Assembly (NCBI RefSeq): GCF_000328705.1
Contig: NC_019673.1
Location: forward strand, 2,914,001-2,978,000
Direction: 5' to 3'
Length of the DNA stretch: 64,000 nt
DNA from: Saccharothrix espanaensis DSM 44229
GTDB taxonomy: Bacteria; Actinomycetota; Actinomycetes; Mycobacteriales; Pseudonocardiaceae
Shown: one piece after another, positions 4,433 to 45,146 of the stretch
Layout of the letters: every line of letters starts with the position of its first letter
Position numbering within the stretch: the stretch's first letter is position 1
Translations under genes and position numbers: made by a program
The notes under the pieces: model-generated
Database searches by the model: none
What the model saw: the letters and a program-made list of their open reading frames with translations, nothing else
Told to the model about the DNA's origin: nothing

Positions 4433-5242
4433 CTATCGGGCACCGTTTCGAGGCCCGGCCAAGTCCTGTTCGATCGCGGTGCAGGCGGCCAACAGCGGGG
4501 GCAGCATCTCGTGGCGCAGCCGTTCCACCGTCGTGCGGCTGGCGTGGGTGGACACGTTCACCGCCGCCACCACCCGGCCCGCCCGGTCTCGTACCGGGGC
4601 GGCGATCGATCGGAGTCCTTCTTCCAGTTCCTGGTCGACCAACGCCCAGCCCTGGTCGCGGACCTGTGCCAGTTCGGTCCGCAGTCGGTCCGGCGAGGTG
4701 ATGGTGTGCGACGTCAACGCTTCCAACCGCACGCCGCCCAGGTACGCCGTCAGCTCACCCACCGACAACCCGGCCAACAGAACGTGCCCCATGGACGTCG
4801 CGTACGCCGGGAACCGGGTGCCCACCGTGATCGACACCGCCATGATCCGCGACACCGCGAACCTGGCCACGTACACCACGTCCGTCCCGTCCAACACCGA
4901 GGCTGAAGTGGACTCCCGCACGTCCACCGACAACCGCTCCAGGTGGGGTTGCGCCACCTCCGGCAACGCCGCGCTCGACAAGAACGCGTACCCGAGTTCC
5001 AACACCCGCGCCGTCAACGAGAAGAGTTTGCCATCCGTACGCACATACCCGAGGTCCACCAACGTCAACAGGAAGCGCCGCGCCCCGGCCCGGGTCAGCC
5101 CGGTCCGCTTGGCGACGTCCGTCAGCGTCAAAGCGGGACTGTCTGCGGTGAACGCGCGGATCACCGCCAAGCCGCGTTCCAGCGACTGCACGTAATGCGC
5201 GCCGCGCTCCGGCGGTGCTTCCTGCTCCGTCATGGTGGCCAT
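4433..5242 (-). CDS. IclR-family regulator, probably of the beta-ketoadipate genes
   Basis: A 269-residue protein with an N-terminal winged helix (YVQSLERGLAVIRAF, then LTLTDVAKRTGLTRAGARRFL) and an IclR effector domain (FPAYATSMGHVLLAG, DQELEEGLRSIAAPV). I chose ATG 5242 (ATG 5233 is an alternative 3 codons in). The frame stays open upstream to 5335, but that extension is the translation of an 18-bp tandem repeat and lacks family similarity. The sequence resembles PcaR/PobR-type regulators. The genes transcribed towards it on the same strand are thiolase and CoA-transferase genes, so it likely senses protocatechuate or beta-ketoadipate and acts at the dyads upstream of catI. Target and ligand are inferred. 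Confidence 0.88.
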   Translation of the reverse strand: MATMTEQEAPPERGAHYVQSLERGLAVIRAFTADSPALTLTDVAKRTGLTRAGARRFLLTLVDLGYVRTDGKLFSLTARVLELGYAFLSSAALPEVAQPHLERLSVDVRESTSASVLDGTDVVYVARFAVSRIMAVSITVGTRFPAYATSMGHVLLAGLSVGELTAYLGGVRLEALTSHTITSPDRLRTELAQVRDQGWALVDQELEEGLRSIAAPVRDRAGRVVAAVNVSTHASRTTVERLRHEMLPPLLAACTAIEQDLAGPRNGAR

Positions 5243-5274
5243 CACCCTATCCGCCGCACACCTCAACCCACCGC

Positions 5275-5418
5275 GCGACAATCCCTCGACGTGCGACAAC
5301 TGCTCGACGTGCGTCGATCTCTCGACGTGCGACAACTGCTCGACGGGTTGTGGCGGCTCGTCGTGCGGTGGCTGGTCGTCGTGCGGTGGCGGCTCGTCGT
5401 GTGGTGGCGGCCGGTGGA
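5275..5418. repeat. 18-bp tandem repeat, about eight units
   Basis: Eight consecutive 18-bp units lie between the stop of the thiolase gene and the start of the IclR gene. Units 1-4 (5275-5346) follow GCGACAACTGCTCGACGT; units 2 and 4 differ at one base. Units 5-8 (5347-5418) are a diverged version following GCGGTGGCGGCTCGTCGT. The period is a multiple of three, so every frame is repetitive. On the + strand it spells Cys-rich hexapeptides (STCDNC, SSCGGG); in the IclR frame it spells SHVEQL-like hexapeptides. It may be a minisatellite or a multi-site binding array. Confidence 0.85.
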
Positions 5419-5512
5419 CGTGCCGTCCGCCGAACAGGTGCTGTCCGCCGGAGGTGCGCGAGCCGGCCGCCTTCCGACCGCTGCTACCCGACCACCGCCC
5501 AACCGTCCGTCG

Positions 5513-6688
5513 CTAGGCCTCCAGCACGACCGCCAAGCCCTGGCCCACGCCGATGCACAGCGCCGCCAAGCCCCACCCGCCGCCGCGTCGCCGCAACTCG
5601 TGTGCCAACTGGAGCACCACCCGCCCGCCGGACGCGCCCAGCGGGTGGCCGATGGCGATCGCGCCGCCGTTGACGTTGACGATCTCCGGGTCCAGTTCCG
5701 GCCAATCGGTCAGGCACGCCAGCGACTGGGCGGCGAAGGCCTCGTTCAGTTCCACCACCGCGAGGTCGCCCCACCCGATCCCGGCCCGCCGCAATGCGAT
5801 CTCGGCGGCCTGCACCGGGCCGAGGCCGAACGCATGCGGGTCGACGCCGGCCGCGCCCCGGCCCGCGATCCGGGCCAAGGGCACCAGGCCCGCGCTGTCG
5901 GCCGCCTGCTTCGAGCCGAGCAAGAGCGCCGCCGCGCCGTCGTTGAGCGGGGAGGCGTTGCCCGCCGTGACCGTCCCCTGTGGACGGAACGCGGGCTTGA
6001 GGCCGGCCAGCTTCTCCAGGCTGGTGTCGGCGCGGATCCCTTCGTCCCGCGTCGCTGCCACACCGGGCGGGGGCACGACGTGGCCGTCGTAGAAGCCGTT
6101 GTCCCACGCCTTGGCGGCGAGCTGGTGGCTGCGCAGGGCGAACTCGTCCTGCCGCTCCCGCGTCACGCCGTACCGCTCGGCCAGTTGCTCGGTCGCCTCG
6201 CCGAGCGACACGGTCCACTCCGCCGGCAGGTCGGGGTTGGTCATCCGCCAGCCCAGCGTGGTCGAGTGCAGGGTCTCGTGGCCGACCGGGAAACCCTTGC
6301 CGGGCTTGAGCAGCACCCACGGCGCACGACTCATCGACTCGACGCCGCCCGCTACGACCAGCGACGCGTCGCCGACCGCGATGGTCCGCGACGCCTGCAT
6401 GACGGCGTCCATCCCGGAGCCGCACAGGCGGTTGACCGTCGTCCCCGGCACGGACGTGGGCCAGCCGGCCAGCAGGGTCGCCATCCGGGCGACGTTGCGG
6501 TTGTCCTCGCCGACCTGGTTGGCGTCGCCGAACACGACCTCGTCCACGGTCGCCGGGTCGAGGTCGGTGCGGTCGCCGAGGGTTCGCAGGACGTGCGCGG
6601 CGAGATCGTCCGGGCGCACGCCGGACAGCGCCCCGCCGTAGCGGCCGAACGGGGTGCGCACGCCGTCGAGCACGAACACGTCGGTCAC
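5513..6688 (-). CDS. pcaF: 3-oxoadipyl-CoA / acetyl-CoA acyltransferase (thiolase)
   Basis: A 391-residue thiolase with GTG start 6688 overlapping the catJ stop (GTGA). All thiolase signatures are visible: the acylated Cys in NRLCGSGMDA (about residue 90), GGVESMSRAPW, the catalytic His in GGAIAIGHPLGASG, and the second Cys in ALCIGVGQG near the C-terminus. It would cleave beta-ketoadipyl-CoA to succinyl-CoA and acetyl-CoA. Assignment to PcaF rather than a general acetyl-CoA acetyltransferase rests on translational coupling to the CatI/CatJ-type CoA-transferase immediately upstream. Confidence 0.9.
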   Translation of the reverse strand: MTDVFVLDGVRTPFGRYGGALSGVRPDDLAAHVLRTLGDRTDLDPATVDEVVFGDANQVGEDNRNVARMATLLAGWPTSVPGTTVNRLCGSGMDAVMQASRTIAVGDASLVVAGGVESMSRAPWVLLKPGKGFPVGHETLHSTTLGWRMTNPDLPAEWTVSLGEATEQLAERYGVTRERQDEFALRSHQLAAKAWDNGFYDGHVVPPPGVAATRDEGIRADTSLEKLAGLKPAFRPQGTVTAGNASPLNDGAAALLLGSKQAADSAGLVPLARIAGRGAAGVDPHAFGLGPVQAAEIALRRAGIGWGDLAVVELNEAFAAQSLACLTDWPELDPEIVNVNGGAIAIGHPLGASGGRVVLQLAHELRRRGGGWGLAALCIGVGQGLAVVLEA

Positions 6689-8291: not shown

Positions 8292-8326
8292 TGTTCGTAT
8301 ACCGAACAAAAGTTCTACATACGAAC
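8292..8326. promoter_or_regulatory. twin GTTC-N7-GAAC operators upstream of catI
   Basis: Two inverted repeats with the same geometry lie just upstream of the chosen catI start. One is TGTTCGTATACCGAACA at 8292-8308 (perfect 6-bp arms); the other is GTTCTACATACGAAC at 8312-8326. Their centres are 19 bp apart, about two helical turns. The AT-rich, dyad-symmetric layout fits cooperative binding of a dimeric IclR-family regulator such as the one encoded at 4433-5242. The protein-site link is inferred. Confidence 0.65.
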
Positions 8327-44740: not shown

Positions 44741-45020
44741 CCCGCCACTCTTGCCGCTCCTCTCCCGCCCCGTTCCCGCTGCCCGTCGACTTCTCGGCTC
44801 CCGCCACCGTTCCCGCTGCCCGCCGTCCCCGCCGCTCCTGCTGCTCTGCCGCTCCCCGCCGCCTTGCCTCTCCGCTGCTCCATCGTCAGCGCTCCCCACC
44901 CGGACCGCATCCGTCTTCTCCCGCCCGCCTTTCGCCCGCGCTCGCGTTCCGCCTCGACCACCTTCCGCCCCGGCCGCTGTCAGTCAGGCGCTCCGTCCAG
45001 GAGATCCACTAACCTTCCTC

Positions 45021-45146
45021 GCGCCTCGCGCCTCGCGCCTCGCGCCTCGCGCCTCGCGCCTCGCGCCTCGCGCCTCGCGCCTCGCGCCTCGCGCCTCGCG
45101 CCTCGCGCCTCGCGCCTCGCGCCTCGCGCCCCGCGCCCCGCGCCCC
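45021..45146. repeat. 7-bp tandem repeat (GCGCCTC)15 + (GCGCCCC)3
   Basis: Fifteen perfect head-to-tail GCGCCTC units at 45021-45125 are followed by three GCGCCCC variants at 45126-45146. A 7-bp period cycles through all frames, giving heptapeptide shadows (ASRLAPR on +, GARREAR on -). Perfect copies imply recent slippage expansion, so length is probably variable between strains. Confidence 0.95.

Follow-up and report, generated by a model that had tools for sequence, protein, structure and literature searches.

An apparently private 18-bp tandem array between pcaF and pcaR of Saccharothrix espanaensis and its probable origin as a minisatellite

Gene setting and structure of the array

We analysed a 64,000-nucleotide stretch of the S. 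espanaensis DSM 44229 genome, hereafter the window, whose positions are used throughout. Genes on the minus strand run in the order pcaI- and pcaJ-type CoA-transferase subunits, pcaF-type thiolase, a gap and an IclR-type regulator, which places the array in the gap that precedes the regulator gene of an operon for the degradation of aromatic compounds. The regulator product, scanned from the upstream start at 5242, scored 338.5 bits against TIGR02431 (PcaR/PcaU/PobR), above the cut-off of 284.75. The thiolase passes the broad model TIGR01930 and misses the cut-off of the pcaF model TIGR02430, and the product of pcaI misses that of TIGR02429; pcaI, pcaJ and pcaF are thus putative names based on context and best match. 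The features of the junction are as follows:

4433–5233, minus strand: pcaR, IclR-type regulator of the PcaR/PcaU/PobR family (TIGR02431), with probable start ATG 5233 and alternative ATG 5242
5232–5516, plus strand: open frame of 94 codons spelling Cys-rich hexapeptides, not regarded as a gene
5244–5249, minus strand: TAGGGT box, −10-like, 10 nt before the pcaR ATG, putative promoter element
5274–5345, no strand: four A-type units of 18 bp, TGCGACAACTGCTCGACG type; the units at 5292 and 5328 are identical
5346–5417, no strand: four B-type units of 18 bp, TGCGGTGGCGGCTCGTCG type; the first and last are the most divergent
5513–6688, minus strand: pcaF-type thiolase, whose stop codon supplies the TAG of the plus-strand frame through a CTAG palindrome

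Phased to the Cys-rich frame, the eight units (four A and four B) span 5274–5417, with starts at 5274, 5292 and so on to 5400. Apart from the one identical pair, A units share 13–14 of 18 positions with each other, B units match each other at 12–16 of 18 and A units match B units at 5–12 of 18. Tandem Repeats Finder returned 18-bp rows at 5275–5335, 5285–5345 and 5350–5411 (scores of 80, 92 and 103) and a 36-bp row at 5285–5401 (score of 109). The latter score was reached by none of 300 dinucleotide shuffles of the 270-bp gap (5243–5512; shuffle maximum 90), and 20 shuffles of the whole window gave maxima of 45–88, all below 109; the array is therefore a head-to-tail repeat exceeding chance. 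An earlier note on this DNA had described eight units in two subfamilies between pcaF and the IclR gene, abutting the regulator start. The repeat rows and unit comparison bear out the units and subfamilies, and the location between the two genes, both on the minus strand, also holds; the array does not abut the regulator, whose probable start codon at 5233 is ~40 bp away.

The array lies upstream of the TAGGGT box, about 25 bp away, and the box is intact. A TAGG[GC]T box precedes the regulator ATG by 9–10 nt in seven of eight orthologous loci (TAGGCT in one of the seven), with no obvious ribosome-binding site between box and ATG in these seven. The box may be the −10 element of a near-leaderless transcript, although a consensus scan of 5180–5560 found neither a sigma-70 promoter nor a terminator. 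At the eighth locus (L070, genome G195), the box is absent and the regulator starts at the pcaF stop, which suggests that this regulator depends on the pca operon promoter. Folding of the gap RNA was modest on both strands (minus, z = −1.01, with 33 of 200 shuffles as good; plus, z = −2.13, with 7 of 200 as good) and, with no terminator consensus in 5180–5560, a structured RNA or terminator was rejected.

Distribution of the array among relatives and within the genome

With one genome per species in the comparison, an orthologous regulator was found at E ≤ 1e-100 in 8 of 25 same-genus genomes, S. espanaensis included, and pcaF lies directly upstream in all seven other loci. Their pcaF–pcaR gaps measure 12, 22, 51, 57, 77, 95 and 179 bp versus 274 bp here, expressed as the distance between aligned codons, such that the true gap is shorter in L067, L068 and L070, where the alignment begins or ends inside a protein. 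The earlier note had proposed looking for the array in orthologous loci; it is missing from all seven of these gaps and present in one locus of eight. A repeat scan of the five longer gaps gave best scores of 0, 0, 0, 45 and 50, while the gaps of 12 and 22 bp were left unscanned, being too short to contain the array. In L066, which is the same gene as L037, there are 11 bp between the pcaF stop and the box, and the DNA occupied by the array is therefore dispensable there.

The wider comparison covered 89 loci including the window, 15 of which have pcaF on the same strand between −50 and 800 bp upstream. These 15 comprise the window, three duplicates (L088–L090, with values identical to L066, L069 and L068) and 11 others, namely the seven congeneric loci and four more distant ones (L114, L126, L144 and L158). 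The four more distant loci lack the array, two of them by scanning and two by being too short. Gaps of ≤40 bp (L066, L070, L144 and L158) cannot hold the array and were left out of the repeat scan, and none of the seven scanned gaps among the 11 contains an 18-bp array. For the other 74 loci, 17 have no pcaF match in the stretch compared, two have pcaF on the opposite strand and the rest have it farther off or downstream among the matches listed. A DNA search of 200 family genomes gave matches to the pcaR flank in G172 and G184 that stop at window positions 5256 and 5270, short of the array. The array is thus private to its own genome among the loci compared.

Equally strong arrays are common in S. 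espanaensis. Within a sample of 20 stretches totalling 400 kb, we found 13 separate tandem loci scoring at least 100, two of which belong to a single CRISPR-like locus, and rows with an 18-bp period at 24 loci. The array is therefore of an ordinary kind for this genome. A whole-genome search found no second place with the A unit in tandem. Allowing up to three mismatches, the A unit had 10 matches versus four for a reversed-pattern control (two of the 10 within the array) and the B unit had 17 versus 34 (three of the 17 within the array), and a dispersed repeat family was rejected on these counts. Other repeats encountered were a near-perfect 7-bp tandem array elsewhere in the window (45017–45144; CCTCGCG × 18.3, 99% matches) and, in L172 (6353–8826), a CRISPR-like array in which a repeat of ~28 bp recurs with a 61-bp period.

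Regulator-binding and peptide readings

The earlier note had suggested that the units could be regulator-binding sites. Such sites might serve PcaR, in autoregulation of pcaR, or another regulator. Fixed-unit direct repeats are a plausible operator layout, and the array lies directly upstream of the regulator gene and close to the box. PcaR of Rhodococcus opacus represses pca promoters and sits inside its own target operon (PMC9582017). Two conserved sites upstream of pcaI provide a reference:

8293–8307, minus strand: operator-like palindrome of 15 bp, conserved, PcaR type, GTTCGGTATACGAAC, upstream of pcaI
8312–8326, minus strand: second conserved operator-like site, GTTCGTATGTAGAAC, upstream of pcaI

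Spaced 19 bp apart, these 15-bp sites (GTTCG-N5-[CA]GAAC) are found upstream of pcaI in all nine loci compared (S. espanaensis and eight others), with a one-base departure in each of the two sites of L071. The Pseudomonas PcaR operator of the beta-ketoadipate pathway, given in PMC12455658 as GTTCGATAATCGCAC, has the same 15-bp GTTCG-N5 layout as the sites at 8293–8326, a motif that is missing from the 18-bp array. We built an operator matrix from the 18 pcaI-upstream sites of the nine loci, own included, gathered by a pattern written after the alignment had been seen. Both window operators score 23.8, whereas the gap peaks at −1.5, a position ranked 138th in the window, against a background at 500 random places with a median best-of-256 of −2.1 and a 95% point of 5.7. 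No array unit matches the PcaR operator above background, and a PcaR-binding array was rejected on this matrix, which covers PcaR-type motifs only and leaves other regulators outside its scope. As far as the neighbouring regulator is concerned, the binding proposal therefore fails on its motif and, with the array also missing from the seven orthologous gaps, a cluster of binding sites for PcaR or another regulator is very unlikely.

Slightly less plausible still are readings in which the array encodes protein. Four of the six frames run through the gap without a stop (shuffles average 1.77; 4.1% reach four and 91% have at least one), and the earlier note had pointed to a plus-strand frame at 5232–5516 that could encode a Cys-rich repeat peptide. 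The frame exists, and its 94 open codons speak for an expressed peptide, perhaps kin to the Cys/Ser/Gly tails of TIGR04222 proteins. Such Cys-rich membrane-protein tails are proposed substrates of MNIO enzymes (PMC12452194), and their SSCGGG hexapeptides also appear in one reading of the B units here. Three of four array matches examined, in L002 (own genome) and in L005 and L019 (family members), are Cys/Ser/Gly tails of TIGR04222-type proteins in the same frame sense; L003, the fourth match (E = 6e-4), falls inside a large unrelated ORF that looks like a polyketide synthase. Unlike those tails, the frame is antisense to the operon and has no relative in congeners: the only one of 25 congeneric genomes to carry it is its own, and it matches no Pfam or NCBIfam model, including TIGR04222.

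For this peptide, codon usage points both ways. The synonymous-codon score of the array in the Cys frame is mildly positive (0.40, somewhat under the lowest of the genes at 0.51–0.89), but the full codon score is −0.45 per codon, far under the +0.39 to +0.62 of nine window genes on which the codon table was also trained, and coding was rejected for all six array frames, each scoring below the nine genes on this measure. Pairwise differences between units number 22, 14 and 11 at codon positions 1, 2 and 3, so that 36 of 47 fall at the first two positions, the reverse of purifying selection. The frame's start and stop are palindromic images of its neighbours' codons, the ATG arising from CATG at the regulator start and the TAG from CTAG at the pcaF stop. 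As the frame is not conserved, shows no sign of selection and borrows its start and stop codons, the Cys-rich peptide of the earlier note is very improbable.

A minus-strand counterpart, in which the units form an N-terminal PcaR extension with hexapeptide repeats, is no more credible. No stop interrupts the regulator frame as far back as the end of pcaF, and the only start codons in or near the array are TTG, but the aligned PcaR start is ATG 5233 with the conserved box just before it, and the array scores −0.35 in this frame. In five of the seven congeneric orthologues (L036–L040), an in-frame stop occurs 4–11 codons before the regulator ATG, and in L037 this stop is that of pcaF itself. The most speculative proposal, which we consider the least probable of all, is that the gap captured, or grew independently, a TIGR04222-like Cys-rich hexapeptide repeat, making the plus-strand frame a newborn orphan peptide gene antisense to the pcaF–pcaR junction.

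The array and the L002 tail are identical at 35 of 39 bases. When the shared 13-residue peptide was re-encoded at random from local codon usage, the mean was 30.5 and 6% of 2,000 draws reached 35. Codon bias alone can thus yield the shared SSCGGG reading, and derivation from the L002 tail was rejected as copying is not needed. A copied origin of the B half from a TIGR04222 tail is still conceivable, given that the L002 tail contains two B-unit matches spaced by 18 bp. The L002 region (642–2446, at about 1.94 Mb of the S. espanaensis genome) contains adjoining TIGR04222-type proteins, one above the model cut-off and one below, the former with a Cys/Ser/Gly-rich tail carrying SSCGGG repeats. In L005 (661–2018) and L019 (673–2366), TIGR04222-type Cys-tail proteins are directly followed by an MNIO-type gene that scores below the equivalog cut-offs; the L005 protein itself scores 42.3 against a cut-off of 43.

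Probable origin and significance

We consider the array to be a lineage-private, slippage-grown minisatellite without dedicated function that merely lengthens the gap (probability about 0.87). The unconserved DNA that separates pcaF from the promoter-proximal part of pcaR would have contained an 18-bp stretch that was duplicated several times, probably via replication slippage or unequal recombination, after which the copies would have drifted into the A and B subfamilies. The exact unit pair suggests a later duplication or conversion, and the array probably leaves pcaR expression little or not affected. If recently gained, a private array could still affect that expression.

The earlier note had offered a growing minisatellite as an alternative to binding sites, and the identical A pair, the imperfect remaining units, the unconserved gap and the private presence fit this description, although growth itself was not observed. 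Two results count against the minisatellite: four open frames of six are more than most shuffles have, and the plus strand folds slightly better than expected. Strain-to-strain length variation is the hallmark of an active minisatellite. The array resembles bacterial intergenic minisatellites and variable-number tandem repeats in its short tandem units, its mix of imperfect and exact copies, its unconserved intergenic location and its restriction to one lineage; it differs in that, with one genome per species, it is known from a single length. A literature search for tandem repeats in actinobacterial intergenic DNA returned nothing on the topic.

By itself the array is of little importance. 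It illustrates cleanly how repeat expansion in a GC-rich gap produces open frames with striking peptides and the look of an operator cluster, and its analysis had a useful by-product in the two conserved PcaR-type operators that precede pcaI.
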